This document shows, in pieces, positions 6,901 through 26,200 of a stretch of DNA of 64,000 bases. The notes beneath the pieces were generated by a model, which made no database searches, was not told the DNA's origin, and was given only the letters and a program-made list of their open reading frames with translations. The DNA comes from Rhodococcus ruber (GTDB taxonomy: Bacteria > Actinomycetota > Actinomycetes > Mycobacteriales > Mycobacteriaceae). Made by a program: the position numbers and the translations under genes. Every line of letters begins with the position of its first letter. Position 1 is the first letter of the stretch. The stretch covers positions 186,001-250,000 of the forward strand of contig NZ_JAPWIJ010000010.1 of NCBI RefSeq assembly GCF_027270735.1, read 5' to 3'.

Positions 6901-9900
6901 GGCATTCGTCACCGGTGCGGCCGACACCTCAGTCGGAAGATCGCCGTCGACCAGGATGATCGGCACGTCGCCCGACGCCTCGAACGCGTCTCGGTGTGCA
7001 CTCAGAATCACTAGCGGCGCAGCGGCCTCGAGGATGTGGTGCACGCGGTCCGAGGGTCGACTCGGGTCGATCGGTACATAGACACCACCGGCCTTGCTCA
7101 CCGCATACATCGCGACGAGCAGCTCGACGGAGCGGGTCAGGGCCAGGGCCACAGGAACCTGCGGACCGACGCCCGCATCGATCAGGACGCGAGCCAGTCG
7201 GTTCACCCTCCCGTCGAACTCGCTGTAGGACAACGACTCTCCGGCCCAAGTGAGCACCACGGAGTCCGGGTGAGCCGCAACCTGGGCGTCGAACAACGAG
7301 ACCAACGTCTGTTCGGTGTCGACGTCATGATCGGTGGCGTTCCACGTCCGCAGAATCTTCGTCCGCTCGGATTCGTCCAGCAGGTCCAGATCGCCGACCA
7401 CGACACCGGACTCGGTCGCCACCGCGTCGAGTACCGAGACGAACCGTCGGACGAACTGCTCGATCGTCGATCGGTCGAAAAGATCGGTGGCGAAGCTGAA
7501 TTCCGCATCGAGCACACCGGGCGTGCCATCCGCTTCGTACTTGTCCGACACCGACAACTGCAGATCGGTCTTCGCCAACGTGGATTCGGTCTCGACGGCA
7601 CTGACCGTCAGACCGGGCAACTCGAAGGTGGAGTCTGCGAGGTTCTGGAAGGACAGCCCTACCTGGAACAGCGGGTTGCGTGCCGTCGAACGAACCGGGT
7701 TGAGCACCTCGACCAACCGCTCGAACGGGATGTCCGCATGTGCGAACGCAGCGAGGTCACGTTCACGCGACTGAGTCACCATTGCGTCGAATGTCATCGC
7801 CGGGTCGACTGTCGAGCGGAACACCAACGTGTTGACGAACATGCCGATCATCGGATCGAGCGCGCTCTCTCCACGACCCGCGATCGGAGATCCGATCGCG
7901 ATGTCGTCCGTTCCTGCCATCCGGGACAGGAACACCGCAAAGGCAGAATGGACGACCATGAACAGCGTCGCGTTGTGTGACCGAGCGATATCGGCGAGCG
8001 CTCGATGGACCTCGGCGGAGACGGTGAAGCGCACGGCCTCACCGCGGAAACTCTGACTTGCCGGTCGCGGTCGGTCGGTAGGAAGTACCAGCTGATCCGG
8101 TAGGTCGGCCAGCGAACGCTTCCAGAACTCCACCTGTTGCGCTGCAACAGAACTGGGGTCCGAGTCCGAGCCCAGAACGGTCCGTTGCCACAGCGAGTAA
8201 TCGACGTACTGGACCGGCAACGGTGCCCAGTCCGGCATCGATCCGGCAGCTCGCGCCGAGTAGGCGGTCATCACATCGACGGCCAACGGCCCCATGGAGG
8301 CTCCGTCGGAAGACACGTGATGGACGACGAAGGCCAGCACGTGTTCGGTCTCGCGAACCTGGAACAGTCGAGCGTCGACAGGCACGTCGGCAGTGACGTC
8401 GAACCCGCGGAGGAACAGCTCACCCACGGCGTCGACGATGTCCGCTTCGTCGACGGTTCTCGGATTCAGATCGAGACCGACATCCGACGGCGTCAGTACC
8501 TGCTGGTAGGGGCCCTGCGGCGAGTTCGGATAGCGAGTACGCAACGATTCGTGGCGAGCGAGTACGTCGAACACCGCTGCCTGCAAGGCAGACACGTCGA
8601 GCGTGCCGGACAGTCGCACCGCGAACGGGATGTTGTCCACCGCAGACGAGGTGTCGAACTGGTTGAGGAACCAGTACCGCTGCTGCGCGAGCGAGAGCGG
8701 CGGACGCTCGGGGCGAGATCCCGCCACCAGCGCGGCCCGACTGCCCGACCCCGCCACCGATTCCAGATGGACTGCCAGCGCGGCCACCGTCGAGTACTCG
8801 AACAGAACACGTACGGGGACCACCGTGTCGAGTGCGACTCCGAGCCGAGATACGACCTGGGTGGCGACGAGCGAATTTCCGCCGAGTGAGAAGAAGTCGT
8901 CGTCGAGTCCGGCACGATCGATGTTCAACACGTCCGCGAACACGCCTGCCACGATCTCTTCCACCGCAGTGGTCGGGGTTCGGAACTCACGAGCCTCGAA
9001 CACCGGTTCCGGGAGTGCAGCGCGGTCGAGCTTGCCGACCGGGGTCAACGGCACCGCGTCGAGAACGATGATCGATGATGGAATCATGTACGCAGGCAAC
9101 GACTTACCGAGGAACGACGTCAGCTCGTCGACGTCGACGGCAGCGCCGTGCGTCGGCAACACGTACGAGACCAACGTGGTGACACCCGACGGCAGCTCGT
9201 GACCGAGGGTCACTGCGAACTCGACGCCCGGGTCCGCAGTCAGAGCCGAGTCGATCTCACCGAGTTCGATTCGGAAGCCGCGGACCTTGACCTGGAAATC
9301 GGATCGGCCGACGAACTGCAACTGCAGATCATCCGTCCATCGGACCACGTCACCGGTGCGGTACATCCGACTGCCGTCGGTGCTGTACGGATTGGCCACG
9401 AACCGCTCGGCAGTCAGCGCCGGACGACCCAGATAGCCGCGGGCGAGTGCGCCTCCGGCGAGATAGAGCTCTCCCGCGACGCCCGTCGGAACCGGGTTGA
9501 GACGACTGTCGAGGATGAGCTCCGACATACCGTGGATCGCCCGACCGATCGTGACCGGCTCACCTGGAGTGAGCTCGGCGAAGCTGGAGATGATCGTCGT
9601 CTCCGTCGGCCCGTAACCGTTGAAGTATCGACGCCCGGGTGCCCATCGCGCGAGCAGATCTGGGGTGGTGACGTCACCGCCGACGGACACCACTTTCAAC
9701 GAGTCGATACTGGTGGGATCCATCGTTCCGAGTACGGCCGGGGTGATGATCGTGTGGCTGACTCGTTCGGACTTCAGCAGTTCCGACAGTTCGGTGCCGC
9801 CGAGAACGTCTGCGGGGACGATCACCAAGGTTGCACCGACCGAGAACGCGGCCATCCATTCCAGCACCGACGGGTCGAAGTTCGGCGAGCAGATGTGCAG

Positions 9901-12900
9901 GAATTTCGAGGTCGACGACAGGTGATACAGATCGGTCGCCGCGTCCAGCACACCGCCGAGTCCGGCGTGGGTCACCACGACGCCCTTGGGCTTGCCGGTC
10001 GATCCGGATGTGTAGATCAGGTAGGCAGGATTCTGGAACGTCGACGGCCGCAACCGATCTGCGTCTACCACCGGATTCGTCGACCGAGTGCGAACATCGG
10101 CCACCACTGCATCGTCGTCGATACTCAGCCACTCGAGTTCGTCGGCTGCACCCGACACCGCGGACAGGTGGGCTCGCACGGTCAACCCGAGCACCGCGCG
10201 TGAATCCGAGACCATGTGCCCGATGCGGTCCTGCGGGTACGTCGGATCGATCGGCATGTGCGCCGCACCCGATTTCGCGACCGCCCAGACCGCGAGCACC
10301 ATCTCGTAGGAACGCTGGAAACCAAGGGCCACAACCGCTTCCGGTCCAGCACCTCGCTCGATCAATACCCGTGCAAGCTGCGAGGACGTGGCGTCGAGTT
10401 CGGCATAGGACACCGATCGACCCCGGTACCTGATAGCGATCGCCTCAGGATCGAGCGCGGCACCTGCCGCGAAGATCTCGGCCATGGTGCCGCCCGCGAG
10501 CACGTCGTCACCATGTACATGAGTCAGACGGTCGTACTCGTCGTCGTAGAGGATCGGAAGATCTCCGACGGGGGACGAAGGGGCAGCCACTACCGCAGCC
10601 AGCAACCACCCGAACCGACGCGCAAAGGTGGACACGGTCTTCTCGTCGAAAAGATCACGCGCGTAGAGGAAGCTGGCGGACAGTCCGGCACCGTCGGCCT
10701 TCTCGTGCAGGGTCAGCGACAGATCGAACTTGGCAGTATCGACGTCGAAGTCGAGCCCCGACACGGTCAAGCCCGGCAAGGTGAACTCGCTCGGTGGAAG
10801 ATTCTCCAAGGCGATCGCCACCTGGAACAGCGGATGACGTGCCGTCGAACGCTCCGGATCGAGTAGATCCACCAGCCGCTCGAACGGAATGTCCGAATGC
10901 CCGAAGGCGGCGAGGTCGACATCGCGAACATGACTCAACAGCTCGTCGAACCCTTGACCCGAATCGATCGTCGTCCGCAACACGAGGGTATTGACGAACA
11001 TGCCGATCACGTCGTCCAATGCGGCGTCGCCGCGGCCGGCGACCGCCGTACCGATGGCTATGTCCTCCGACGTCGACATGCGTGCGAGGAACACCGCAAG
11101 AGCAGTGTGCAGCACCATGAACAGCGTCGAGTTGCTCGCGCGCGCGAGGTCACGCAGGCCGCTGTGCACATCGGCATCGATCTCGAACGAGAATCGGCCG
11201 CCCGCGTAGGACTGAACGGCAGGGCGGGCGCGATCCATCGGCAACGACAGCTCGGCGGGAAGGTCGGCCAACGTCTCGCGCCAGTACGACGCCTGCGCCG
11301 AGATCGGACTCTCGGGGTCGTCCTCCTCGCCCAGTGCCGACCGTTGCCACAGCGCAAAATCGATGTACTGCACATCGAGCGCGGTCCACGACGGATGCTC
11401 CCCCGCAGCGCGCGCGACGTAGGCCGTCATCACATCACGCGTCAACGGGCCCATCGACCAGCCGTCCGCACTGATGTGATGGACGACGAAGACCAACACG
11501 TACTCACCGTCGGACACGTGGAACAGCCGCGCGCGCAACGGTACTGCGGCGGTCACGTCGAACCCGGCGGAGGCGAACTCCACGACATCGGCCAGCACCC
11601 GGTCCGGCGACGACACGGCAGGCTCGAGATCCGGGACCACCGATTCTGTGGGCCGAACGACCTGATGACCGATTCCGTCGCTGCTCGGGTACACGGTCCG
11701 CAACGATTCGTGGCGCTCGAGAACATCCGAGACAGCCGCAGTCAGCGCTCCGATATCGAGCGCTCCGGACAGCCTGATCGCCACCGGAATATTGTTCACT
11801 GCCGATTCCGGCTCGAATCGATTGAGGAACCACATACGTTGCTGCGCAAGCGACAACGGAACGAGCTCCGGTCGCTCCTGTGGCACCAGAGGGTGCGAGA
11901 TGCCGCTGCCGACGTGGCTGTCCACCCGCGCGGCCATTGCGGCCACCGAACTCGCCTCGAACAGTGTCCGAACCGCAACGGTGGTACCGAGTTCCGAACT
12001 CAGTCTCGACACCACCTGCGTCGCAACGAGGGAGTTGCCGCCGAGGGAGAAGAAATCGTCATCGACGCCCACCCGATCGATTCCGAGTACATCGCCGAAC
12101 ACCCTCGCGACGATCTCCTCGACCGGAGTGGACGGTGCGCGAAATGCCCGCGTGACGAACGTCGGTTCCGGCAACGCTCGCCGGTCCAATTTTCCGTTCT
12201 GTGTCAGTGGCAATTCCGCCAAGACGACGATGACGTCGGGAACCATGTAATCGGTCAGGAATCGCCCGACGAACGAAGACAATTGCTCGGGGTCGACATC
12301 GACGCCGCTGAAGGGAACAACGTAACCGATCAGTCGATCACCGAATCGATCGTCGTTGCGTACCTGGACCACCGCGCGCGATACCGCGTCGTGTCGCTCC
12401 AGAGCGGCCTCGACTTCGCCGAGTTCGATGCGAAATCCTCGCAGCTGCACTTGACTGTCGCTACGTCCGACGTACTCGAGATTCCCAGACGCAGTGAGTC
12501 GAGCGAGATCACCCGTTCGGTATATCCGCTTGCCTGCAGCACCGTATGGGTGTGCAACGAACCGCACCGCGCTCAGATCCGGTCGTTCGAGATACCCGAG
12601 CGCCAGCTGTTCTCCGGAGACATACATTTCACCGACGACTCCCGCCGGGACCGGACGTAGTCGCGAATCCAGCACGAACACGCCCAAACCTGGAATCGCA
12701 TCGCCGACCCGGCTCGCAGTCGCCTCGCGTGCCGATTCGGCGTCGAGTCGGAGGAAAGACACGTGCACCGTGGTCTCGGTGATGCCGTACATGTTCACCA
12801 GTGTCGGAGCGTCCGAATGACGTTCGTACCACCGGCCGAGCTGTGCCAGGTCGAGGGCCTCCCCTCCAAAAATTACGTACCTCAAGTACTTTTCGTGAGC

Positions 12901-15900
12901 CAAGCCGGCTGTGCGGCCCTCCGCATCGATCAATTGATAGAAGGCCGATGGAGTTTGGTTCAGCACCGTGACGCGCTCACGAACCAGCAGTTCGAGCATC
13001 GCTTCGGGTGAACGCGACGTGAAGTAGTCGACGACGATCACGCGGCCACCCGACAACAGCGGTGCCCATAGTTCCCACACCGAGAAATCGAATGCGAAAG
13101 AGTGGAACATCGTCCAGACATCGGAACTGTCGAAACCGAAGAGTTCCTGTGTGTTGTCGAGCAGTTGCTCGACGTTTCGATGCGACACCCGCACGCCCTT
13201 CGGCGTACCGGTCGACCCGGAAGTGTAGATGACGTAGGCCGTGTTGTCGGCGTGCAGCGTGGCCAACCGCTCGTCGTCGGTGATCGGAGACGAGTCACGC
13301 TCACTGTGTGCAGAATCGTCGATCAGTACGACAGATGGCGACGACAGGTCGAAACCATCTCGAATCTCCGAGTTCGTCAGCAATACAGCAGGTTTCGCGT
13401 CCGACATGATGAACTCGAGCCGCTCGGCCGGGTACGACGTATCTATCGGGAGGTAACCCGCACCGGAGCTCAGAACCGCCAACAACGCCACGACCAATTC
13501 GGCAGACCTCGGTAGCGCCACCGCTACGAGGGATTCCGGTCCAGCACCGGCGGCGACGAGTTCACGGGCCAATGCATTTGCGCGAGAAGAAAGCTCCAGG
13601 TACGACAACGAACTATCACCGAAGGTCACGGCTACAGCGTTCGGGGCAGACCGTACCTGAGCTTCGAAGCGCCCACCGATGCTGGACGCAGGAACCGTAG
13701 ATCCGGCCGGTCGAGTGCGGTCGAGGGCCCACGACCGCTCCTGGACGCCCAGAATCTCGATATTGCCCAGTGCCGTCGATGGCGCGTGTGTGATTGCAGC
13801 GAGCACCCGCAGGAACCGCTGCCCGAACAGCGCCATCGTCGACTCGTCGAACAGGTCGGCAGCGTAGGTCAGCGCCACCGTCAATCCGGACGGCCCCTCG
13901 GTCTTCGCAGCCGAATTCCACAGCGTCACCTGAAGATCGAACTTCGCAAGGTCGGCTTCGTAGTCGAGGGCCGCAACACGCAACCCAGGAATCTCCACGG
14001 ACGACTGCTCGAGGTTCTGGAACGTCAACATCACCTGGAACAGCGGATGCCGCGACTGCGATCGGGCCGGCGACAACACGTCGACCAGTCTCTCGAACGG
14101 CACGTCGGCGTGCGCGAATGCCGCGAGGTCGACCTCGCGTACCTCGCGCAGGAAATCCTCGAACGACTGCCGCGGGTCGAACGGGGTACGCAACACCAAC
14201 GTGTTCACGAACATGCCGATGACGTCGTCCAGCACGGCGTCGCCGCGTCCGGCTACCGGGGTACCGATTGTGATGTCTTCTGCTGCAGACAATTTGGCCA
14301 ACAGCACAGACAGCGCGGCGTGGACCACCATGAACGTCGTTGCATTGTGCGCCTGCGCCACGGCGTCGAGCGCCGCGGCGAGATCGGCATCGATCTCGAA
14401 TCTGTACGTACCGCCGCGGGTACTCGACACCGCAGGCCGCGGGCGGTCGGTGGGTAGGGCGAGCTGATCGGGAGCGTCACCCAACTGTGTGCGCCAGTAA
14501 CTCTCCTGCGCCGAGATCACCGAGTCCGGATCGTCCTCGCTACCGAGAACCGCGCGCTGCCAGAGAGTGAAGTCCGCGTACTGCACCTCGAGTGGAGCCC
14601 ACGCCGGAGCCTCGCCCGCGGTGCGCGCGAGATAGGCCGCCACCACGTCGCGGGTCAAGGGGCCCATCGAGAACCCATCGGCGGCAATGTGGTGGACGAC
14701 GAAGGCCAGCACGTGCTCGGTGGCCGAGAGCTCCAAAAGCAGTGCACGCACGGGCAGTCGCGCCGACAGCTCGAACGGCCGGAGCGCAAACTCGAGCAAC
14801 GTTGCAGGCACGTCCGCAGCGGACACCGCAGCCGTCTCCAGTTCCATTGTCTCGACGCCGGATTCGAGAACCTGCTGATAGCCGACACCCTCGTGATCGG
14901 GGTATACGGTCCGCAAGGATTCGTGTCTGTCCAGAAGGTCCGACACAGCCGCACGCAGTGCCGTCGTGTCGAGCTCACCCGAGAGGGTGATGGCAACCGG
15001 GATATTGTTGACAGCCGAATCGGGCTCGAAGCGGTTGAGGAACCACATGCGCTGCTGCGCGAGGGACAACGGAATTCGCTCGGGTCGCGGCTGCGCAACC
15101 AACGGAGCGCGTACCCCGGCACCGTCGGCCGCATCCACCAGAATCGCAAGCTCCGCCACGGTAGGCGCGTCGAAGAACGAGCGCACGTCCACGGTCACAC
15201 CGCGCTCGGCGTTGACGCGAGCAATGACCCGGGTCGCGTTGAGCGAATTTCCGCCGAGCGTGAAGAAGTCGTCGTCTACGCCGATCCGATCCATTCCGAG
15301 AACTGTTCCGAAGATTGCGGCAAGGGCGATCTCGGTCTCGGTTTCCGGGGCCCGGTACTCGCGTACGAGAGATGAGAAATCGGGTGCGGGCAGAGCCCGT
15401 CGATCCAACTTGCCGCTGGAGTTCAGCGGGAATTCGTCGAGGACGACGAACAGGGACGGCACCATGTAATCCGGCATCCGGCGACGCACTGCATCGGCGA
15501 GTTCGGCGTGATCGATGCCGGCGTTCGTACCGACTACGTAGCCGACGAGATGCTCACCGAGCTGTGGCTGCGCCTCGTCCGAGTGCACCACCACCGCAGC
15601 TTGAGTCACCTCCGGCTCGGCCAGCAGAGCGGATTCGATCTCGCCGAGCTCGATGCGCAGGCCGCGCAGCTTGACCTGGAAGTCGGTTCGGCCGATGTAT
15701 TCGATCAGTCCATCTGCTCGCCGGCGTACCAGGTCACCCGTGCGATACATGCGATCGCCCGGTTGCCCGTACGGGTCGGCAACGAAGCGGTCCGACGTGA
15801 GATCCGTTCGACCGAGATATCCGCGGGCCAACTGAACGCCCGCCAGATACAGTTCACCCTCGATACCGCGGGGCGATCGCCGCAGCGCCTCGTCGAGCAC

Positions 15901-17223
15901 GTACAACTCGGTGTCGTCGACGGCTGCTCCGATGGGTACGGACGTCTCCTCGACACTGCCGGTCTCGTAATAGGTGACGTCGACGGCAGCCTCGGTCGGT
16001 CCGTACAGGTTGTGCAGTGCTGCGCCCGAGATGCGGTGAAACGCATTGACTGTGCGCGCAGGCAGTGCCTCGCCGGAGGCAAACACCATCCGAAGTGAAT
16101 TCTGTTGTGCGGCAGCCGGCTCGGCAACGTACACGGACAGCATGGACGGCACGAAATGCGCTACCGTCACCGCGCGCTCGGTGATGATCCGGGACAAATA
16201 GGCCGGATCCCGGTGACCTTCCGGTTCCGCGATCACCAGAGTCGCGCCGATCTGCAACGGCCAGAAGAATTCCCACACCGACACGTCGAACGTGAAGGGC
16301 GTCTTCTGCAGCACCACGTCCTCGCCGGTCATCGAATAGGCACGCTGTCGCCAGGAGATGTTGGCGACGATCGCGCGATGAGACACCGCGACGCCCTTCG
16401 GTCGACCGGTGGAGCCCGAGGTGAAGATGACGTAGGCCAGGTCGTCCTGCGCCAGAACGCCGATGCGATCGGCGTCGGTAAGTCGTCCGTCAGCCCGTGC
16501 CGACACGTCCAGATCGTCGATCAGCACCGTCGATGTTCCATCAGGCAACTCGGGACGGTCCGCGGTGGTCGTCAGCACGAGGACGGGTCGCGCGATGTCC
16601 AGAACGTAACCGAGGCGGTCCACTGGATGATCGGGGTCGAGCGGCACGTATGCGCCTCCGGCCGCAGAAATGGCGTACATGCCGAGCAGTAGCTCGAACG
16701 AACGACGCACCGACAGTCCGACACGCGCGTCCGGGCCGACGCCGTTCGCCACCAGATGGCGCGCAAGCTGACCGACCTTCGAGGCGAACTGCGCATAGGT
16801 GAGGGCGTCGTCACCGAACATCAGAGCTACGGCGTCAGGCGTGCGTTCGGCTTGATCGGCAAAAAGCGAATACAGCGTGTCCGCGTCGGGCCGAGCCACA
16901 TCGGACGCCGAATCGGTCTCCCCGAGAACCGACACGGCGTCCGAGACGAGCAGCGACACAACCGCATCGAGTCCGCCGTCGCTGGATTCGATAAGGCCGG
17001 GGACGGTGTTGGACAGCACCACCGGAATCAGGGCATCGGGTCCGAGAACGCCCCCCATCGCGGCATCGAGGGTGGTGATCTCGGCGTCGAGACGTGAATA
17101 CGTCAGCTCGGTCGTGAGGTGCGTCAGAGCCACCCTGTCGGGATCCACCGCAGCCACGCTCCGAACCAACCGCGGCAGGTCCTCGATCGTCAGAGACTCA
17201 TCGCCGCGACGTCCTACCGACAT
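1..17223 (-). CDS. Non-ribosomal peptide synthetase, downstream subunit (partial, C-terminus beyond window)
   Basis: 5741 codons are visible without a stop; the frame runs off base 1. The ATG at 17223 has AGGAGG nine bases upstream. Domains in order (approximate residues): degenerate A-like head 1-100; A7 115-610; T7 640-700; C8-A8-T8 (HHxxxDG near 845, A-core near 1333, T serine near 1728); C9-A9-T9 (1917, 2405, 2783); C10-A10-T10 (2968, 3458, 3845); C11-A11-T11 (4033, 4518, 4905); E11 (HHLVADG near 5093); C12 begins near 5450 (HHVLLDG near 5590). It lacks its own C domain for module 7, which sits at the end of the gene upstream. Pocket codes predict Ser, Thr, unknown, unknown, Ser, the last epimerised to D-Ser. 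The protein is cytosolic and needs a PPTase for its carrier domains. No thioesterase is visible because the 3' end is outside. The pair is clearly NRPS; the product is unknown to me. Confidence 0.96.
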   Translation of the reverse strand, partial: MSVGRRGDESLTIEDLPRLVRSVAAVDPDRVALTHLTTELTYSRLDAEITTLDAAMGGVLGPDALIPVVLSNTVPGLIESSDGGLDAVVSLLVSDAVSVLGETDSASDVARPDADTLYSLFADQAERTPDAVALMFGDDALTYAQFASKVGQLARHLVANGVGPDARVGLSVRRSFELLLGMYAISAAGGAYVPLDPDHPVDRLGYVLDIARPVLVLTTTADRPELPDGTSTVLIDDLDVSARADGRLTDADRIGVLAQDDLAYVIFTSGSTGRPKGVAVSHRAIVANISWRQRAYSMTGEDVVLQKTPFTFDVSVWEFFWPLQIGATLVIAEPEGHRDPAYLSRIITERAVTVAHFVPSMLSVYVAEPAAAQQNSLRMVFASGEALPARTVNAFHRISGAALHNLYGPTEAAVDVTYYETGSVEETSVPIGAAVDDTELYVLDEALRRSPRGIEGELYLAGVQLARGYLGRTDLTSDRFVADPYGQPGDRMYRTGDLVRRRADGLIEYIGRTDFQVKLRGLRIELGEIESALLAEPEVTQAAVVVHSDEAQPQLGEHLVGYVVGTNAGIDHAELADAVRRRMPDYMVPSLFVVLDEFPLNSSGKLDRRALPAPDFSSLVREYRAPETETEIALAAIFGTVLGMDRIGVDDDFFTLGGNSLNATRVIARVNAERGVTVDVRSFFDAPTVAELAILVDAADGAGVRAPLVAQPRPERIPLSLAQQRMWFLNRFEPDSAVNNIPVAITLSGELDTTALRAAVSDLLDRHESLRTVYPDHEGVGYQQVLESGVETMELETAAVSAADVPATLLEFALRPFELSARLPVRALLLELSATEHVLAFVVHHIAADGFSMGPLTRDVVAAYLARTAGEAPAWAPLEVQYADFTLWQRAVLGSEDDPDSVISAQESYWRTQLGDAPDQLALPTDRPRPAVSSTRGGTYRFEIDADLAAALDAVAQAHNATTFMVVHAALSVLLAKLSAAEDITIGTPVAGRGDAVLDDVIGMFVNTLVLRTPFDPRQSFEDFLREVREVDLAAFAHADVPFERLVDVLSPARSQSRHPLFQVMLTFQNLEQSSVEIPGLRVAALDYEADLAKFDLQVTLWNSAAKTEGPSGLTVALTYAADLFDESTMALFGQRFLRVLAAITHAPSTALGNIEILGVQERSWALDRTRPAGSTVPASSIGGRFEAQVRSAPNAVAVTFGDSSLSYLELSSRANALARELVAAGAGPESLVAVALPRSAELVVALLAVLSSGAGYLPIDTSYPAERLEFIMSDAKPAVLLTNSEIRDGFDLSSPSVVLIDDSAHSERDSSPITDDERLATLHADNTAYVIYTSGSTGTPKGVRVSHRNVEQLLDNTQELFGFDSSDVWTMFHSFAFDFSVWELWAPLLSGGRVIVVDYFTSRSPEAMLELLVRERVTVLNQTPSAFYQLIDAEGRTAGLAHEKYLRYVIFGGEALDLAQLGRWYERHSDAPTLVNMYGITETTVHVSFLRLDAESAREATASRVGDAIPGLGVFVLDSRLRPVPAGVVGEMYVSGEQLALGYLERPDLSAVRFVAHPYGAAGKRIYRTGDLARLTASGNLEYVGRSDSQVQLRGFRIELGEVEAALERHDAVSRAVVQVRNDDRFGDRLIGYVVPFSGVDVDPEQLSSFVGRFLTDYMVPDVIVVLAELPLTQNGKLDRRALPEPTFVTRAFRAPSTPVEEIVARVFGDVLGIDRVGVDDDFFSLGGNSLVATQVVSRLSSELGTTVAVRTLFEASSVAAMAARVDSHVGSGISHPLVPQERPELVPLSLAQQRMWFLNRFEPESAVNNIPVAIRLSGALDIGALTAAVSDVLERHESLRTVYPSSDGIGHQVVRPTESVVPDLEPAVSSPDRVLADVVEFASAGFDVTAAVPLRARLFHVSDGEYVLVFVVHHISADGWSMGPLTRDVMTAYVARAAGEHPSWTALDVQYIDFALWQRSALGEEDDPESPISAQASYWRETLADLPAELSLPMDRARPAVQSYAGGRFSFEIDADVHSGLRDLARASNSTLFMVLHTALAVFLARMSTSEDIAIGTAVAGRGDAALDDVIGMFVNTLVLRTTIDSGQGFDELLSHVRDVDLAAFGHSDIPFERLVDLLDPERSTARHPLFQVAIALENLPPSEFTLPGLTVSGLDFDVDTAKFDLSLTLHEKADGAGLSASFLYARDLFDEKTVSTFARRFGWLLAAVVAAPSSPVGDLPILYDDEYDRLTHVHGDDVLAGGTMAEIFAAGAALDPEAIAIRYRGRSVSYAELDATSSQLARVLIERGAGPEAVVALGFQRSYEMVLAVWAVAKSGAAHMPIDPTYPQDRIGHMVSDSRAVLGLTVRAHLSAVSGAADELEWLSIDDDAVVADVRTRSTNPVVDADRLRPSTFQNPAYLIYTSGSTGKPKGVVVTHAGLGGVLDAATDLYHLSSTSKFLHICSPNFDPSVLEWMAAFSVGATLVIVPADVLGGTELSELLKSERVSHTIITPAVLGTMDPTSIDSLKVVSVGGDVTTPDLLARWAPGRRYFNGYGPTETTIISSFAELTPGEPVTIGRAIHGMSELILDSRLNPVPTGVAGELYLAGGALARGYLGRPALTAERFVANPYSTDGSRMYRTGDVVRWTDDLQLQFVGRSDFQVKVRGFRIELGEIDSALTADPGVEFAVTLGHELPSGVTTLVSYVLPTHGAAVDVDELTSFLGKSLPAYMIPSSIIVLDAVPLTPVGKLDRAALPEPVFEAREFRTPTTAVEEIVAGVFADVLNIDRAGLDDDFFSLGGNSLVATQVVSRLGVALDTVVPVRVLFEYSTVAALAVHLESVAGSGSRAALVAGSRPERPPLSLAQQRYWFLNQFDTSSAVDNIPFAVRLSGTLDVSALQAAVFDVLARHESLRTRYPNSPQGPYQQVLTPSDVGLDLNPRTVDEADIVDAVGELFLRGFDVTADVPVDARLFQVRETEHVLAFVVHHVSSDGASMGPLAVDVMTAYSARAAGSMPDWAPLPVQYVDYSLWQRTVLGSDSDPSSVAAQQVEFWKRSLADLPDQLVLPTDRPRPASQSFRGEAVRFTVSAEVHRALADIARSHNATLFMVVHSAFAVFLSRMAGTDDIAIGSPIAGRGESALDPMIGMFVNTLVFRSTVDPAMTFDAMVTQSRERDLAAFAHADIPFERLVEVLNPVRSTARNPLFQVGLSFQNLADSTFELPGLTVSAVETESTLAKTDLQLSVSDKYEADGTPGVLDAEFSFATDLFDRSTIEQFVRRFVSVLDAVATESGVVVGDLDLLDESERTKILRTWNATDHDVDTEQTLVSLFDAQVAAHPDSVVLTWAGESLSYSEFDGRVNRLARVLIDAGVGPQVPVALALTRSVELLVAMYAVSKAGGVYVPIDPSRPSDRVHHILEAAAPLVILSAHRDAFEASGDVPIILVDGDLPTEVSAAPVTNAERIAPLRAANTAYVIFTSGSTGEPKGVAVSHGAIVNQMLWQREHYGIGSEDVVLLKTAATFDLSVWEFWVAPISGGSIAIAEADRHRDADYLVDLMRTESVTTLHTVPSMLDSLIVASAGELPPSLRRILAIGEALPVATAERARRSSVARLDNLYGPTEAAVSVTSHEVAGTSVGSVSIGSPEWNTQVYVLDARLAPVPPGVAGELYLAGVQLAEGYFGRTDLTAERFVANPHSVVGGRMYRTGDLVRWAPNGELDYVGRTDFQVKIRGFRIELGDIDTALASLDEVRDVAVVATKDDRLGDRLVAYIVPSGADVVDADGLRDALSTRLPSYMVPSAFVILDALPLNANGKLDRKALPQVQFEVTEFRAPTNSVEEAVAGVFADVLGIDRVGLDDDFFALGGNSLIATQVVSRIGAALDTQVPVRAIFESSTVFGLARAVESKVGTGARRALTPRSRPESLPLSMAQQRMWFLSQFDPASAANNIPAAIRLTGTLDVDALATAVTDVVTRHEILRTVYPESDGNGRQLVLGPADSGIAAEIVQVDASEVSDTLRGIMSEGFDVTRAVPVRIRILEVSTTEHVLAFVAHHIAADGFSMGPLTRDIMVAYAARTAGESPQWSPLPVQYADYTLWQREVLGTEHDPESVLAQQVTYWQSVLAGAPAHLDLATDRPRPAVASYRGGAYNFSLSSTLHADVGRVARENNATVFMVTHTALAILLSSMAGVDDVTIGTPVAGRGDSNLDDLIGMFVNTLALRTSVNAGTTLREQLALVREADLGAFGNADVPFERLVDVLAPERSQSRHPIFQVMLTFQNLEQQALTMPGLTVEGIELGVTTAKFDLQVTLWEQFDDAGKPDGIDVQFDYATDLFDESTMAGLARRFVRVLDALTGDPHRVVGDVDILDTGERTRVLEEWNATDHEVDSASTLVSLFEARAASVPDRTALSFADESVTYGDFSRRVNSLARLLIAEGVGPETVVAVAMRRSVDMLVGIYAVITAGGAYVPIDPDQPADRIGYILAIAAPVAVLTTGSESLDASVPHISIDTVDIADFGAGPVTDDERTAALRPSDTAYVIFTSGSTGRPKGVAVSHEAIVNRLVWMQSEYLLGDTDVVLQKTPVTFDVSVWELFWPLQIGAELAIAKPDGHRDPSYLVDVIRRRGVTVAHFVPSLLAVFAGADGVSECTSLRMLFASGEALPASVASSLRSTLPVVSLHNLYGPTEAAVDVTYHEVTAADINSVPIGAPVWNTRVTVLDARLRPVPVGVPGELYLAGVQLARGYLGRPDLSADRFVANPYGGNGSRMYRTGDLVRWNANGELDYLGRTDFQVKLRGLRIELGEIEAALTSDSAVGQAVVLVRQTPSAGEILVGYVVPATGATIDASAVTATVAAAVPEYMVPADLIVLDGLPLGPNGKLDRRALPDPQFGSSAEFRTASSDTERLIAEVFADVLGLDSVGVDDSFFALGGDSIVSIQLVSRAKARGILFGPRDVFERKTVAGLAEVAVTIGEGADALVLEELDGGGVGWMPLPPFGEALTQRGGGWSRFHQAVTLELPVGIDRAGIDATLGAVIDHHDILRSTLVRDDRGWGLDVSDPGTVEVDGLIFAGETDTAAQTFETAVDSLDPDAGRMLAFVWIDRRDGVPGTLSIVAHHLVADGVSWRILVPDLVSAWAQISSGATPVLPAVGTSMRRWTHALRDESVTEARLTELPRWRQVAETPDPLLGDRPFDPAIDVVDTIERVDAGLTAEVTRTLLTTVPEIYRGGVADGLLAALALAVSALRAEQGLVAPMTLVQLEGHGREEAVVPGADLGRTVGWFTSLFPTRLDLTGIDVADALAGGPAIGAAVKAVKEQMLSVPDRGMGWGMLRYLNADTAVELAELGTGQISFNYLGRVGTGEVSEDVKSLGWLPTADSGELSARGDADMAANKTIDINAIVLDTENGAELSASFAFPRGAVESTTVERLAQLWAQALNSLAAHAATPAAGGLTPSDLPLVSVTQSDIEGFERRYPTVTDVWSLSPLQQGLLFHALFADASIDVYTMQVVLELGGDVDGERLHSAARALLDRHDNFRTSFATTADGESVQIVHRQVELPWATLDVTHLDGAERDAVVADALAEDQRRHFDVAVAPLLRFLLIRLTPTSYTLAMTNHHVLLDGWSLPLMMKELLYLYAVRSDTASMPRVRPYRSFLAWLDQQDESISHQAWADALDGVEEPTLIAPQHHGREISSRSAEARAHLDVETTAALVELGSRLGVTVNTLVQAAYGLLLSRMTGSDDVLFGATVSGRPAGLAGVESMIGLFIN
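1000..5529 (-). other. NRPS module 11: C - A(Ser) - T - E, giving D-serine
   Basis: C11 has HHIAADGFS near 5125. The A core FDVSVWELF, VAHFVPSL, LFASGEA and NLYGPTEAAVDV gives D-V-W-H-F-S-L-V-D-K, serine. The T motif is FFALGGDSIVSIQL near 2508; GGDSI instead of GGNSL is typical of carriers paired with an E domain. The E domain carries HHLVADGVSWR near 1945 and later ISFNYLGRV. This is the only epimerase in the visible assembly line. Confidence 0.9.
5530..8709 (-). other. NRPS module 10: C - A - T, same pocket as module 6
   Basis: C10 has a variant HHVSSDGAS near 8320. The A core FDLSVWEFW, TLHTVPSM, ILAIGEA and NLYGPTEAAVSV gives D-L-W-H-L-I-L-V-S-K, identical to module 6. T motif FFALGGNSL lies near 5690. 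Confidence 0.85.
8710..11879 (-). other. NRPS module 9: C - A - T, divergent A domain, substrate Z (unassigned)
   Basis: C9 has HHISADGWS near 11475. The A core is of another lineage: FDPSVLEWM, TIITPAVL, VVSVGGDV and NGYGPTETTII, giving D-P-L-I-V-V-G-I-I-K. The flanking C and T domains look like those of neighbouring modules. The pocket is mostly non-polar, so a hydrophobic substrate is likely. Confidence 0.82.
11880..15089 (-). other. NRPS module 8: C - A(Thr) - T
   Basis: C8 has HHIAADGFS near 14690. The A core FDFSVWELW, VLNQTPSAF, VIFGGEA and NMYGITETTVHV gives D-F-W-N-I-G-M-V-H-K, a threonine code. T motif FFSLGGNSL lies near 12040. Confidence 0.92.
15090..16923 (-). other. NRPS module 7 A(Ser) - T, on the downstream subunit
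   Basis: The A core FDVSVWEFF, VAHFVPSM, VFASGEA and NLYGPTEAAVDV gives D-V-W-H-F-S-L-V-D-K, a serine code. T motif FFTLGGNSL lies near 15250. Confidence 0.91.
16924..17181 (-). other. N-terminal A-like docking head of the downstream NRPS
   Basis: Residues 15-100 begin DLPRLV and contain PDRVALTH, LTYSRLD and NTVPGLIE. They precede a second, complete A-domain start (TLYSLFADQAERTPDAVAL near residue 116). It therefore duplicates the opening of an A domain without the catalytic core, and it parallels the tail of the upstream subunit. Confidence 0.6.
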
Positions 17224-17276
17224 CTATCCATTCCTCCTGATCGATCTACGTGCACAACCGGCGTGGTCGGTTCTCG
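17224..17276 (-). promoter_or_regulatory. Inter-subunit gap with strong ribosome binding site
   Basis: 53 bp between the TGA of the upstream NRPS and the ATG of the downstream one. AGGAGG occupies 17233..17238 (minus strand), nine bases before the ATG. I see no hairpin or promoter, so co-transcription is likely. Confidence 0.7.
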
Positions 17277-20200
17277 TCACGATGACGCGATCACCGACTC
17301 CGCTCTCTCGATCAACGATGCCAGAGCGGCAGCAAGACCATCCGCACCGAGGGTGGGCAACACTCCGGGAACCAATCCCGACAGCGTCACCGTGACGAGC
17401 GCCTGCGGCTTCATCGCAGCACCCATCGTTGCCGCCATCTGCGTCAACTTCTCGCTCATCGCGCCGAAGCCGACCTGTGTGTCCTCGTGCTCGAACGCAA
17501 CTGCATCCGGTGCTATCGCCGCGGCCTTCGCGAGCAATTCAGGAAGGTCGTCGACGGTCTTCGGCCTGGCTTTCGGCTCGAGCTCTGCCTTCTCCTCGTC
17601 GGAGAGAATGTCGATCGATCGAAGCACCACCCGCGGATCGGACGCGACGGCCTCGAGAATCTTCACGAAACGACCGGCGAACGCAGCGATGGTCGACTCG
17701 GTGAATATCGAGGTGGCATAGGTGAAGGTGGTCTCGATCTCGGTGAGAGAGCCGGAATCGTCGAACGCCTCCACCGCGGTCAGCTGAAGATCGAACTTCG
17801 CCTGGTCCTCACCTGCCGGTAGTGCTTCCACCTGCAGACCTGGTAGTTCGAAGACTCCGGTCGTGTGATTCTGGAACGTCAGCATCGCCTGGAACAGCGG
17901 CGTGTACGCACTCGATCGTGCGCGCCCGAGCGCGTCCACCAGTCGCTCGAACGGAACGTCGGCATGTGCGAACGCGGCGAGATCCTTCTCCTTCGCTTGG
18001 TCGAGCAGGTCGACGAACGTGCTGTTCGGGTCGACCCGAGTGCGCAACACCAGAGTGTTGACGAACATGCCGACCAGATCGTCCAGCTTCTCCTCACCTC
18101 GCCCAGCGCTCGGTGTACCGATACTGATGTCGGACGAATTGCTCAGCCGCGCGAGCAGAACAGCGAACGCTGTGTGTACCACCATGAAGGTCGTCGCTGC
18201 ATGTTCACGGGCTATGCGTTCTATTGCCTGCGCTGTCTCGCCACCTATCGCGAACCGATACGACGCACCCTGCATCGTCGGCCGAGCCGGACGCGGCCTG
18301 TCGAGTGGGAGAGCCAGCAACTCCGGCGCGCCGGCCAGTTCGTCCGTCCAGTAGGAGAGCTGTCGAGACAGCACGCTCTGCGGGTCGTCCTCGCTTCCGA
18401 GAACCTCACGCTGCCACAGCGCGAAGTCCGCGTACTGGACCTCGAGCGGAGCCCAGGCAGGCAACTCCCCCGCAGTCCGCGCGGTGTACGCCACCATCAC
18501 GTCTCGGATCAGCGGTCCCATCGAGAATCCGTCAGCCGAGATGTGGTGCGCCACCACGGCCAGAATGTGCTGACCGTCGCCGACGTCGAGCAGCGCAGCA
18601 CGTACTGGTACCTGTGCCGTCACGTCGAAACCGGTCCCCAGAACCTCGGTCAACCGTGAGACGACCTTGTCCGGTGCCACCGCCTCCGGTGTCAGATCCA
18701 CCGCCACGTCGGGCACTTCGCCGACCAGCTGCACGGGTCCGTCGGTACCGTCCGGGTACCGAGTCCGCAGAATCTCGTGTCGTCCCACCACATCGTCGAA
18801 TGCTGCCCGTAGAGAATCGACGTCGAGTTCGCCCGTCAAACGAACTGCGACGGGAATGTTGTATGCCGACGATGCCGGATCCAGCCGGTTGATGGTCCAC
18901 ATACGTTCCTGCGCAACGGACAGTGGGAGTACCTCCGGCCGTTCGAGCGCAGTCAACTCACGGCGAGCGCCGCCGCCGACGAGCGGTGCGATGTGTCCGG
19001 CAAGGCCTTCGACCGTCGAAGCAGTGAACACTGCACGTACCGGAATCCGAGCATCGAGCGCCTGTCCGAGTCGCGATACCAGCTGCGTCGCGACAAGCGA
19101 ATTACCGCCGAGCGCGAAGAAGTCGTCATCGAGGCCGACCCGTTCGAGACCGAGAAGAGTCTCCACCGTGCGAGCCACGATCTCTTCGACAGGAGTGACC
19201 GGAGCACGGAACTCGGCGGCCTCGAACTGCGGTTTCGGCAGTGCTCGTCGGTCGAGCTTGCCGTTGGAGTTCAGGGGCAGACTATCGAGCACGATGAACG
19301 TCGCCGGAACCATGTACGACGGAACAGACTGTGTCAGAGCCTCTTCCACAGTCCGTACGTCGACGGTGGCGTCGCCCTGTCCGACCACGTATGCAACGAG
19401 CTGGTCACCGAGGTGGGCATCGCCGTGCACGATCACCGCGGTGTCGGCGATCGCCGACTGGTTTCTCAGTGCCGATTCGATCTCACCGAGTTCGATTCGG
19501 AATCCGCGGATTTTCACCTGGAAGTCGGCACGTTCGACGTACTCGATTCGTGCTGCCCCGGTGCCGCTGTCGGCAACGCGCCATCGCACCAGGTCCCCGG
19601 TTCGGTACAACCGAGCTCCGGCTGCGCCGAACGGGTTGGCGACGAACCGTTCGGCGGTCAGATCGGCGCGACCGAAATACCCTCGGGCCAGTTGCTCGCC
19701 GGCCAGATAGAGCTCACCCGTTATCCCCGCGGGCACCGGATGGAGCCGGGAGTCCAACACGAACACCTGGGTGTTGGCCTCCGGAACACCGATCGGGACC
19801 ACGACCGTATCGGCATCGGTGACAGCGTGCGCTGTCACGGACACGGCAGCTTCGGTCGGTCCGTAGAGGTTGTGCAGCTCTACGTCGCCGTTGGCGCGAC
19901 GGAAATCCTGCGCTACCGCTGCGGGCAGCGCTTCGCCGATCGCCAGTACCCGACGCAGCGTCGGTGCCAACGGCCCTGCGCTGACCGTCGTCAGCATGGA
20001 CAGCATCGACGGCACGAGATGCAGCGTGGTCACGGCCCTGTCGCGGACCAACGCGAGCAGGTATTCGGGATCGCGATGTCCGTCGGCCGCCGCTATCACA
20101 ATGCGTCCACCGGAGGTGAGCTGCGACCAGAACTCCCAGACCGAGAGGTCGAACGACGCGGCGGTTTTGAGCAGTGACGAATCGGATTCGTTCAGCTGGT

Positions 20201-23200
20201 ACTCGTCTCGCAGCCAGTTCAGCTGATTGACGATTGCGGCGTGCGGTACCGCGACACCCTTGGGTCGTCCGGTGGAACCAGACGTGAAGATGATGTACGC
20301 GATGTTGTCTCCGGACAACGGCGCGATGCGTTCCTCGGACTGCAACGGCTCCGCCGAATATCCCGACAGATCTACCTCGGAAATATCGAGAACAGTTACC
20401 GCAGCAGCAATCTCGTTCTCCTCGTCGCCTCGACCCGACACCAGGACACACAGAGGTGCTGCAGTGGCCAGTACGAATGCGTTTCGGTCGGCAGGCTGGT
20501 CCGGATCTATCGGCACGTATGCGCCACCGGCCATCGAGATCGCGTACATCCCGACGAGCAGGTCGACGGACCTACGTATCGCCAGTCCGACGCGTACTTC
20601 CGGGCCGACTCCCACCGATACGAGGTGGCGGGCCAGACGCGAGACCCGATCCGAGAATTCGGCATAGGTCACCGTGCCGTTGTCGTGCTCGAGCGCCACC
20701 GCGTGCGGATCGGCCGTAGCCGACTCGATGAAGAGATCTATGAGCGTCGCGTTGCCCTCGACCTCACGAGAGGTGTCGTTCCAGCCCTCGACGATGGTCG
20801 TGCGCTCGCCCTCGAGCAACAACTCGAGGTCACCGATCGGTGTGGTCGGGGATGCGATGAGTGACGCCGTCAGGTTCTGGAAGCGATCCACGATGGAGCG
20901 CGCAGTCCGATCGTCGAACAAGTCCGTGGCGTACGTCAGCATGGCACCGAAGCCGCCGCCGGCTTCGCTTTCGTCCGCTTCGCCGTCGGACACGATGAGG
21001 TGAAGATCGAACTGTGAATTCCCGGATTCGGTATCGAGTGCCGAGATCTCCAGCCCGTCGAGCTCGAACTCGCGCCGGGCGAAGTTCTGGAACGAGAATC
21101 CCACTTGGAACAGCGGATGCCGAGCCGTCGACCGGGTCGGGTTGACCACCTCGACCAGCCGCTCGAACGGGATGTCCGAGTGTGCGAATGCCTGCAGATC
21201 TGCTTCTCGAGCCGCGTCGAGAACATCCTCGAACGTCGAGTCCGCCGAGACGTCGAGCCGAAGGACGAGAGTGTTGACGAACATACCGATCACGTTCTCG
21301 ATCTCGGCTTCACCCCGTCCGGCGATCGGAGTTCCGACGGTGATGTCCGAAGACCCGGAAATCCGCGCCAACAGCACGGCGAACGCCGCATGTACTGCCA
21401 TGAAGACAGTGGCGTTGTGCGCACGTGCCACGGCCTGCAGTCGGTCTCGAGTCGCACTGTCGATCTCGAAATCGATTCGAGAACCACGGAACGTCTGATG
21501 CGCCGGGCGTGGTCGATCGAGCGGCAGGTCGATCTGCTCGGGCAGATCGGTCAACGCCTCGGACCAGTACTGAATCTGCTGCGCAGCAACCGATTCGGCG
21601 TCGTCCTCGGACCCGAGGATCTGGCGCTGCCACAGTGCGTAGTCGGCGTACTGCACCGGCAGTGGTGCCCACTCCGGATCGCCGCCTCTGGTACGCGCGG
21701 CATACGCGGTCATCACATCGGTCGACAGCGGCATCATCGACAGACCGTCCGCGCTGATGTGATGAACGACAATGCCGAGTACGAACTCGCGGTCGGAGAC
21801 CCGGAACAGTGTGGTCTTCAACGGAATACGAGCGGTGACATCGAAAGTTGTCGCCAGCAGTTCCAGCACCCGCGCGGTCACTGACTCGGCGTCGGTGTCG
21901 ACGACACCGAGCGTGGTGGATATCTCGGACATCGGAACGACGACCTGGTGCGGGCCCTCCGGCGAATCCGGATAGACGGACCGCAGCGATTCGTGGCGCT
22001 CGATGACGTCGGAGATCGCCTGCGCGAGTGCCTCCACATCCAGTTCACCGCTCATCCGCAACGCGAACGGAATGTTGTACGCGGTAGAGGAAGGATCGAA
22101 GCGGTTGAGGAACCACATGCGCTGCTGGGCGAGCGACAGCGGGACACGATCGGGTCGCGGCTGCGCGACGAGCGGAGCCCTGCTGCCGGAGCCCGAACTC
22201 TGCTCGACGCGTACCGCCAGAGCTGCCACCGACGAGGCCTCGAACAAGGCGCGAACCGGCACCGTCGTCTCCAACGCGGTTCCCAGCCTGGACACGACCT
22301 GTGTCGCTACCAGAGAGTTTCCGCCGAGCTCGAAGAAGTCGTCGTCGAGACCGACTCGGTCCACTCCGAGAACCTCCGCGAACACACGAGCGACGATCTC
22401 CTCGATCGGCGTCGTCGGCGAGCGGAACTCGCGGATCTGCGCTGCGGGTTGCGGCAGTGCGCGTCGGTCCAACTTTCCGTTCACTGTCAACGGAATTGCG
22501 TCGAGAACGACGAATGCCGAGGGCACCATGTAGTCGGGCAGGTTCGCGGCGACCGTGCGACGCACGGTGTCCAGATCGACGGCCGAAGCGGCCCCCGGAA
22601 CGATGTACGCCACCAGCCGCAACGCGCCGGGAACGTCCTCGCGAACGATCACTGCCGCCTGGCCGACCGTAGGCGCGGCAGCAACGGTGGATTCGACTTC
22701 ACCGAGCTCGATACGGAATCCGCGAATCTTCACCTGATCGTCGGCGCGACCGACGAACTCGAGTTCCCCGGCCGTGGACCAACGCGCCACGTCACCCGTC
22801 CGGTACAACACAGAGCCGTCGCGTGCGAACGGATCGGCAACGAAGCGCGTGGCACTGAGCCCGGCTCGACCGAGGTAGCCGCGTGCGACCTGACCGCCCG
22901 AGACGTACATTTCCCCCGGCACGCCGGCTGGTACCAGATTGAGTCGACCGTCCAGAACGTAGACCGACAGGCCCGAGATCGCCCGGCCCACCAGTGAACC
23001 CGTCGCCTCCGCAGCCGACGTGGCGTCCACCACTCGATGCGAGACGTGCACGGTCGTCTCGGTGATGCCGTACATGTTGACCAGGACGGGAGCTGTGTCA
23101 CCGTGTCGAGCGAACCACCCGGCCAGACGTCGAAGCTCCAATGCCTCGCCGCCGAAGACGATGTAGCGCAACGCATAATCCGCAGCACCACCGGTGCGGT

Positions 23201-26200
23201 CGACCTCGTCGAACTGATAGAACGCGGACGGCGTCTGGTTGAACACCGTCACTCGTTCACGGACGAGCAGTTCACGCAGTGCTTCCGGCGATCGAGACGT
23301 GAAGTAGTCCACCACGACGACGCTGCCGCCGGTGGTCAGCGGTCCCCACAGTTCCCAGACCGAGAAGTCGAAGGCGAACGAGTGGAACAGAGTCCACACG
23401 TCGTCGGGACCGAACTGGAAACTGCGCTGGGTGTTGGCCAACAGACGCACGACGTTGCGGTGTGGAATCACCACGCCCTTGGGCTTTCCCGTGGAGCCCG
23501 ATGTGTAGATCACGTACGCCACGTTTGCCGCAGTCGCCTGCACGCCGAGCTCGGCCGATGCCAGCGGCCGACCGTCCGCTTCGACGGTCGAATCGATCTC
23601 GATCCGCGGCAGACCCGTCGGCAGCTCCACCTCGACGCCGGACCACGTCAGTACGGCGGCCGGTTGCGCGTCGGTCAGCACGAATTCGATTCGCTCGGCT
23701 GGGTACGACGGATCGATCGGCACGTAGCCGCCACCCGCCTTCAGCACGGCGAGAAGTCCGATCACGAGTTCCGATGTTCGCGGAAGCACAACTGCAACGA
23801 GCGATTCCGGTCCGACACCGACGGCAAGCAACCGCCGCGCCAGTGCATTCGATGCCTCGTCGACCTGTCGGTAGGTCAGGACAGAACCGTCGTGCACCAC
23901 CGCGGTGTCGTCGGGTGCCGCTGCCGCCCTCTCGGCGAACAGATCCACCAGGGTCGAGGGGACATCGTCGACCGGCTCCGAGCTCGCCGCAAATTCCAGC
24001 AACTGCGCCCGCTCGGACGTGTCGACCAACTCGATGTCGCCGATGGTCTGCGCTGGATCGTGCGCGACCGACTCGAGCACCTGCACCAGTCGATCACCGA
24101 ATCCTGCGACCGTCTCGCGATCGAAAAGCTCTGTCGCGTAAGCGATTTCAACCCAGATTCCCTGGGAATCCGGAGACTCGACGAAGGTGAACTGCAGATC
24201 GAACTTCGCCGTGGCAACCGGCAGATCGACCGGGCTCACGTTGAGACCCGCCAGTTCGATCTCGGTCTGCTGCATGTTCTGGAACGACAGTACGACCTGA
24301 GCGAGCGGATGACGCGCCGCCGAACGACCGGGATCGAGTGCCTCGACCAGACGCTCGAACGGAATGTCCGCGTTCGCGAAAGCCGAGAGGTCGACCTCCC
24401 TGGTGTGCGCGAGAAGGTCGTCGAAACCGATGTCCCCCCGTACCGAAGTCCGCAGTACCAGCGTGTTGACGAACATTCCGATGACGGCGTCCAGCGCCTC
24501 GTCGCCGCGACCGGCGACGGGTGTGCCGATCACGATGTCGTCGGTTCCGGACATCCTGGCGAGCAGCACGGACAGAGCCGAATGAACCACCATGAACAGC
24601 GACGAACTGTGGGTGCGGGCCAATTCGTCCAACCGCGCGTGCAGCGGCGCGCCGATGGAGAACGACACACTCGCGCCTCTGTTGGACGCGACGTCCGGGC
24701 GCGGCCGATCGGTGGGGAAAGTCAGCTCCTCGGGTGAATCATCGAGCGCTGCAATCCAGTGGTCGGCTTGTTGCGCGAGCAGAGACCGCGGATCTTCGGG
24801 AGAACCCAGCACCTCTCGCTGCCACAACGTGTAGTCGACGTACTGCACGGAAAGCGGATCCCAACCGGGTTCGGCATCGGCGGACCGCGCCAGGTAGGCG
24901 GTCATCACATCTCGGGCCAGTGGACCCATCGAGAACCCGTCGGCCGAGATGTGGTGGACCACGACGGTGAGCACATGCTGCGTCGGTGTGACTCGGAAGA
25001 GCCTGGCGCGCAACGGAACTTCGGACGACACGTCGAAGCCCTCCATCACCACGTCTTCGATGACCGAGTGGATCTCGGCGGCCTCGATCGATAGCGGCTC
25101 GAGAGTGATGGCCACGTCCGTGCTCGACAGAACCACCTGGCTGGGAACGCCGTCGTTCGCCGGGTACACGGTGCGCAGGGACTCGTGGCGCTCGATCAGG
25201 TCGGCAATCGCACGTGTCAGCGCAGTCGTGTCGAGAGTGCCGTTCAACGTCAACGCGACCGGCAGGTTGTTCGCAGCAGACGAGGTGTCGAACTGGTTGA
25301 GGAACCACATCCGGCGTTGCGCCAAGGACAACGGCACGACCGCCGGACGCACCTGACGGGTCAGTGCCTGCCGCGCTCCAGCACCGACCTTCGATTCGAT
25401 GCGCGCGGCGAGTGCGGACACGGTCGGTGCCTCGAACAGTGCCCGAATGGGCACGGCCGTGTCGAGTGCAGCGCCGAGACGAGCCGCGACCTGAGTGGCG
25501 ATCAGCGAATTTCCACCGAGTAGGAAGAACCCGTCGTCTGCACCGACCCGGTCGACACCGAGCACGTCTGCGAACACCGAGGCGACGATCTCCTCGACCG
25601 GCGTCGACGGCATTCTGAATGCCTTGGCCTCGAACACCGGTTCCGGCAGTGCCTTACGGTCCAGCTTGCCGGACGAATTGAGGGGGAATTGAGACAGAAT
25701 CACAATTGCCGCGGGCACCATGTAGCTCGGCAGCGCAGCCGAGACGTGCGCCGTGAGTGTCGCCGGCTCTGCCGCGGCACCCGGCACCGGCACCACGTAT
25801 CCGACGAGTTGCTCGCCGGTCGTGGTTGCGGCCACGACCGCGCTCGCCTGGCTGACGTCGGGATGCGACAGCAGCGCCGTTTCGATCTCACCGAGTTCGA
25901 TTCGCTGACCTCGGAACTTGACCTGGAAGTCGGTACGGCCGATGTATTCGACGACGTTCGTTCCGTCGCTTCGCCACCGAACCAGGTCTCCGGTTCGGTA
26001 CATCCGTTGTCCGGCCGGACCGAACGGGTCTGCGACGAAGCGATCCGATGTCAGATCGACTCGGCCCAGGTAACCGTTGGCGAGTTGTACGCCCGCCAGG
26101 TAGAGCTCACCTGCAACGCCAGGGGCGACGGGATGCAGTCGGCCGTCCAGTATGTGCAGGCGAACGTTCCACTCGGGACGGCCGATCGGTACGACCGCGG

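Follow-up and report, generated by a model that had tools for sequence, protein, structure and literature searches.

The 64,000-nucleotide stretch of Rhodococcus ruber DNA analysed here (the window) comes from a genome of 5.86 Mb (G000) and carries two consecutive genes for large nonribosomal peptide synthetases (NRPSs), NRPS1 and NRPS2, built from modules of condensation (C), adenylation (A) and thiolation (T) domains. The boundary between the two falls inside a module, between its C and its A domain, and at this C|A break NRPS1 ends, and NRPS2 begins, with a small domain of about 90 residues. These two domains, which we refer to as the tail and the head, and what they may do at the subunit boundary, are the subject of this work. 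The features concerned are:

17277..38159, minus strand: NRPS1, 6960 aa from a TTG start, with six C-A-T modules followed by C7 and the tail domain
17580..18932 (about), minus strand: C7, condensation domain of the split module (Pfam PF00668, E 7e-100)
17280..17561, minus strand: tail domain, a C-terminal, apparently A-derived mini-domain of ~94 aa, predicted to form a helix, a β-hairpin and three helices
17277-17279, minus strand: NRPS1 stop codon, directly after the tail domain
17232..17238, minus strand: AGGAGGA, by eye the likely ribosome-binding site of NRPS2; a similar sequence precedes most heads printed
1..17223, minus strand: NRPS2, with its ATG at 17223, comprising the head, A7-T7-C8 and later modules, and continuing beyond the window
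17191-17223, minus strand: 11-aa leader of NRPS2, preceding the head domain
16915..17190, minus strand: head domain, an N-terminal, apparently A-derived mini-domain of ~92 aa, homologous to the tail
15397..16920 (about), minus strand: A7, adenylation domain of the split module

The translation of NRPS1 runs in regular C-A-T order, with six A domains and as many T domains, which makes its last C domain C7 and the first A domain of NRPS2 A7. The NRPS1 frame is open as far as 38270, and translation may begin at a site other than the listed TTG at 38159. In the whole genome the open frame of NRPS2 extends to 7264 aa, and a second C|A break lies just outside the window (L001 11433-12284, G000 C1), with ends that differ from those of the first: NRPS2 closes with a C domain and a degenerate A remnant of ~280 aa (78 bits), and NRPS3 opens with a basic, Arg-rich leader, followed by a full A domain.

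In a test with 13 sequences, tail and head are 35.5% identical over 93 aa (65 bits, E 4e-19), while the best A-domain start of the same two enzymes reaches 28 bits against the tail and 33 bits against the head. Profile-profile comparison (hhalign) aligns the two with a probability of 99.6 (E 1.2e-23, 34% identity), and a search of the tail against its own whole genome returns the tail itself (196 bits), the head (53.6 bits) and, next, an A domain (21.6 bits). An earlier note on this DNA had described related domains, about one third identical, at both ends of the break between C7 and A7, and had allowed that they might align no better than with any A-domain start. Sequence comparison confirms the pairing, C7 with the ~94-aa tail facing the ~92-aa head with A7; the estimate of identity was close, and the reservation falls away. 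The range given for it, 16924-17549, marks the right place and is slightly short at both edges.

The arrangement recurs well beyond the window. Of 37 genomes of the genus, 30 have tail and head side by side at a C|A break; three others (G001, G002, G005) have single copies within one protein of ~11.4 kaa (thousand amino acids), and four (G011, G012, G016, G035) yield A-domain-level scores only, or none. Across the family, a match at E 1e-6 was obtained in 184 of 401 genomes, representing 16 of 31 genera, a count that takes in internal copies. Wider samples, of 397 genomes from the order and 396 from the phylum, yielded 15 and 4 matching genomes, every one of them a member of this same family, in searches that scored at most 12-13 candidates per genome and may have missed weak relatives; a plasmid search gave a single place, in Nocardia farcinica (E 4e-8). 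The nearest named records to the window tail are Rhodococcus strains. Among 67 loci from named organisms, 57 (including L143, which is broken by frameshifts) show the tail, a stop and then head-A in the next frame, with the head match starting 33-199 nt past the tail stop. The protein ends at most 16 residues from the tail match in 65 of the 67, with L166 and L180 extending 58 and 143 residues past it. Homologues at paired NRPS termini, for which the earlier note had suggested looking, are therefore found elsewhere, and its view that both fragments resemble the opening of an A domain is also borne out, as follows.

Judged by their sequences, tail and head descend from the N-termini of A domains. 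Searched against the PDB, both profiles match, below E 0.1, A-domain proteins only, the best being LgrA (linear gramicidin synthase; E 8.5e-7 for the tail and 3.7e-4 for the head). A 41-column stretch of the predicted fold superposes on SlgN1 with a root mean square deviation (rmsd) of 1.1 Å and 39% identity (Foldseek E 0.4, probability 0.98); the structural output comes without a range, and the sequence matches make the first half of the domain the most likely location. Structural alignments of the whole domain to A domains give an rmsd of 3.4-4.2 Å and Z up to 5.4, and the helical second half of the model seems to depart from the A-domain fold. Compared with the adenylation domain proper (PF00501), the domains have only about 90 residues, lack active-site motifs and have a helical second half in the model. 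At E 1, neither tail nor head has a match to any Pfam family, PF00501 included, and a further Pfam search gave in this region only the end of the C domain (E 0.17). Identities offered by NCBIfam were set aside, as the matches are weak and far under the cut-off, most of them to acyl-CoA synthetase or NRPS models, with an ABC permease and an IS2 repressor as noise.

The model of the window tail, built on 88 aligned tails and heads, shows the helix, β-hairpin and three helices with a pLDDT of 92.0 and a pTM of 0.81, and so predicts a separable folded unit, as docking domains require. For 205 pairs drawn from 63 loci and selected for an A-domain dN (nonsynonymous substitution rate) of 0.02-0.2, the ratio of dN to the synonymous rate (dN/dS) has a median of 0.269 in both the tail (n = 203) and the head, compared with 0.253 in the C domain and 0.197 in the A domain, indicating that tail and head are under purifying selection like the C domain.

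Relatives of the two domains also occur in other settings. Eight fused NRPSs of ~11.3-11.8 kaa (L063, L064, L065, L121, L122, L123, L196, L197) have a single copy of the domain between C and A; two such C-A places, about 7 kb apart, are seen in six of the eight stretches and one in the two shorter ones. Standalone relatives, in open frames of 107-240 codons, frequently occur as tandem pairs (L202 4856-5227 and 5722-6165; L206 5157-4726 and 4545-4048; also L201, L203, L204). Those in L202, L203 and L204 lie directly upstream of a large NRPS; in genera g16 and g18 they lie directly upstream of a fused NRPS, in g10 and g12 they share a contig with NRPS genes, and the two g10 genomes have a further copy about 40 kb from the pair. 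A profile of the standalone b-gene matched 11 of the 39 genomes searched, in G014 and G226 not as a standalone gene. Finally, nine heads in the genus of the window (L066-L074) have no adjacent tail; the NRPS upstream of them ends shortly after a C domain in seven cases and after a T domain in L067 and L074. These nine are second NRPS2-like subunits, and in L068, L069, L070 and L073 a secreted-looking, putatively mycolyltransferase-like protein of ~360-400 aa lies between the NRPS genes.

By BLAST, the closest relatives of the after-head A domains in the window, L110, L163 and L066 are other after-head A domains, and the same is true of those behind nine remote heads of Nocardia described below, which makes the split an old one within this assembly line. 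At their second internal site, the fused proteins have an A domain that matches the after-head group at 57-62% and is equally close to a few others (in L122, equally to an Antrihabitans A domain not preceded by a head, L139/L112, and to after-head A domains), so this site probably, though not with certainty, represents the same junction carrying a single domain copy. In a tree of 133 sequences and 90 columns, the tails form one group (86/96) and the heads and orphan heads another (99.9/56, the bootstrap being low), in which the row L163_1, an A domain cut by the locus edge, is an artefact. The pair in G113/L124 falls, with both its copies, among the internal copies of the first site (97.8/100), and genera g8, g12, g16 and g18 contribute heads, tails and standalone copies that together form one clade (90.9/98); in the pairs of g8, g12 and g18 the genes abut or overlap. 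Besides the window type there are separate tail-head pairs in two further lineages (G113/L124 and g8/g12/g18), and because of these placements in the tree the pair at the C|A break seems to have arisen, or to have been re-sorted, more than once.

In part of Nocardia, tail and head are found at unlinked loci. At E 1e-10, 41 of 61 Nocardia genomes have a match and 39 of the 41 have exactly two, which are adjacent in 33 genomes (most of them judged by position only) and apart in six; the two genomes with one match are assemblies of about 150 and 480 contigs. The ten named loci with a tail and no adjoining head are all from this genus. Beside the tail, a degenerate A-A(-C) gene was found in ten Nocardia records (L131, L132, L137, L146, L150, L152, L156, L160, L161, L165); in the four tail-only loci printed, its A-domain motifs look lost and its frame is still open, and the gene that follows the A-A remnant is presumably an MbtH gene. 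Both places were read in seven separated genomes (G352, G303, G388, G412, G430, G376, G420): in each the C-terminal tail adjoins a degenerate gene and an NRPS that starts with a head and an A domain lies elsewhere; the 7.8-8.9 kb that precede the open frame of this remote NRPS contain no NRPS domain scoring 25 bits or more. Of the 60 best A-domain matches of the remote after-head A domains, remote ones excluded, 58-60 are themselves after-head A domains. These sequences are most simply explained by a move of the second half of the line, which would now be joined in trans, although the remote NRPS might also be an independent line with head-A at its start. Komaki et al. describe Ser/Thr-rich NRPS lines for 11-13 residues, conserved in Nocardia and with roles unknown (PMC4035055).

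At one aligned position, tail and head carry opposite charges:

17448..17450, minus strand: codon of tail Lys38; 76 of the 78 distinct tail-head pairs have a basic residue (K/R) here
17080..17082, minus strand: codon of head Glu37, aligned with tail Lys38, Glu in 72 of the 78

The 78 pairs comprise 76 adjacent and two separated ones. All 72 with Glu are adjacent and of the form K/R-E; of the six exceptions, two lose both charges, and both separated pairs are among the six. Internal copies have K or R at the position of tail Lys38 in all 14 listed, and heads without an adjacent tail have E in three of nine and D in one. The pattern fits a contact that is needed by paired heads only, in counts that ignore relatedness.

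We consider it likely that tail and head are a cognate docking pair derived from the N-terminus of an A domain. The homology of the two domains, their position at the break, their conservation, the purifying selection on them and the recurrence of the arrangement can be read from the sequences, and from there we infer binding. An NRPS of the family would have carried one small domain, derived from an A-domain N-terminus, between C and A; the gene would then have broken at that domain, each new end retaining a copy, an order of events that is itself conjectural. The tail would hold C7 and the head A7-T7, and by pairing, these sister domains would restore a module 7 that spans two subunits, giving C7 access to the aminoacyl group on T7; the pairing may also set the order of the subunits. 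The proposal of the earlier note that a duplicated domain had become a docking pair accordingly stands in so far as one domain lies on both sides of the C/A split; the heterodimer interface, whose prediction it had suggested, was not predicted with confidence.

Several observations weigh against pairing. The read-through chain of tail and head has a pLDDT of 78 and a pTM of 0.45, with no confident interface, in a model built on 15 paired rows, an alignment so shallow that it is weak evidence either way. By mutual information, Lys38-Glu37 has zero-based rank 366 of 8458 (effective number of sequences 35.5), and between-domain pairs make up 30 of the top 50, where 52% would be expected; mutual information thus gives no signal and is uninformative here. 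The partial distance correlation between tail and head (0.27; 1 in 2001 by permutation) is lower than that between A6 and C8 (0.43), which lie in different subunits and are not expected to touch, and was not counted because control pairs range from -0.18 to 0.43. A mixed tail/head alignment (A5) had put tails on heads and was not used. At the acidic position, the nine remote Nocardia heads have Q in eight cases, R in one and E in none, so a K-E contact, if real, is not preserved there; the separated Nocardia may moreover be one clade and hence one event. To these are added the fused enzymes, with their one internal copy, and the nine heads without an adjacent tail.

The last two observations, together with the lack of a confident interface, are also what would be seen if the domain were a structural spacer or platform between C and A, which was split in a tolerant region with duplication, each copy serving its own neighbour without pairing; the internal copies do occupy one junction with an A domain similar to A7, and a second junction besides. 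We regard this as unlikely, since two copies have been kept at breaks in three lineages and since Glu is present in 72 of 76 adjacent pairs as against three of nine tail-less and none of nine remote heads, relatedness being uncorrected. It is less probable still that the two bind a third partner, such as an MbtH-like protein or a standalone relative, and not each other: the standalone genes, which directly precede a fused NRPS in g16 and g18 and share a contig with NRPS genes in g10 and g12, would suit such a role, yet they are so patchy (11 of 39 genomes, with none, at the thresholds used, in many genomes that have fused or split enzymes) that we reject it, for an MbtH-like partner too, as a general rule. 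That tail and head are neutral remnants of an A-domain duplication on their way to decay, as their ancestry and the longer degenerate A remnant at the NRPS2 end might suggest and as the earlier note implied in calling them decayed, is very improbable given a dN/dS like that of the C domain, a confidently predicted fold, and length and motifs conserved in 57 of 67 loci.

If tail and head do dock, a bolder reading is conceivable, which we put forward tentatively and hold with less than even confidence: the re-folded A-N-terminal mini-domain of the Rhodococcus/Nocardia family would be a reusable pairing module, which allows an assembly line to be cut between C and A, holds the halves together and, in some Nocardia, joins halves of module 7 that are unlinked in the genome, the standalone tandem copies perhaps being free adaptors. 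The origin of such a connector would be visible, as a piece of a catalytic domain turned to a new use, and a plug placed between C and A would supply what the swapping of A-T units requires in NRPS engineering. Clusters in this family may also be annotated as complete while their second half lies elsewhere in the genome.

Among known docking systems, the β-hairpin docking domain (TubC_N, PF18563) is likewise a small domain with a helix, a β-hairpin and helices. The partner in that class is a short peptide, whereas here it is a homologous domain. PF18563 has no match in the whole genome of the window at E 1, and no β-hairpin docking fold is among the 50 structural matches listed, which excludes nothing. 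The earlier note knew of no named docking class that matches, and none of COM, PAX and β-hairpin fits: to our knowledge, which draws partly on the review cited below, none of them is A-derived, lies at a C|A junction or pairs two homologous domains. A report of an A-derived docking pair was not found in the literature searched, mostly open-access papers. The 2021 review distinguishes COM, PAX and β-hairpin classes of NRPS docking (PMC9113145). There, COM acts at an epimerization/condensation (E/C) junction by a helix-hand on the downstream C domain, and PAX at a junction of peptidyl carrier protein and C (PCP/C) by a three-helix bundle (PMC9113145); in contrast to both, the junction here is C|A, and the downstream partner opens with head-A, unlike COM, and the predicted fold holds a β-hairpin, unlike PAX. 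What tail and head share with NRPS docking domains in general is that they are small elements occurring in pairs, one C-terminal on a subunit and the other N-terminal on its successor (PMC9113145), and by position such facing elements of consecutive subunits are what the 30 genomes of the genus and the 57 named loci contain. What sets them apart from the classes described there is that both partners are homologous, apparently A-derived domains of ~90 aa at a C|A break; if they do pair, they would add to the three of the review another kind of NRPS docking, one that acts inside a module.

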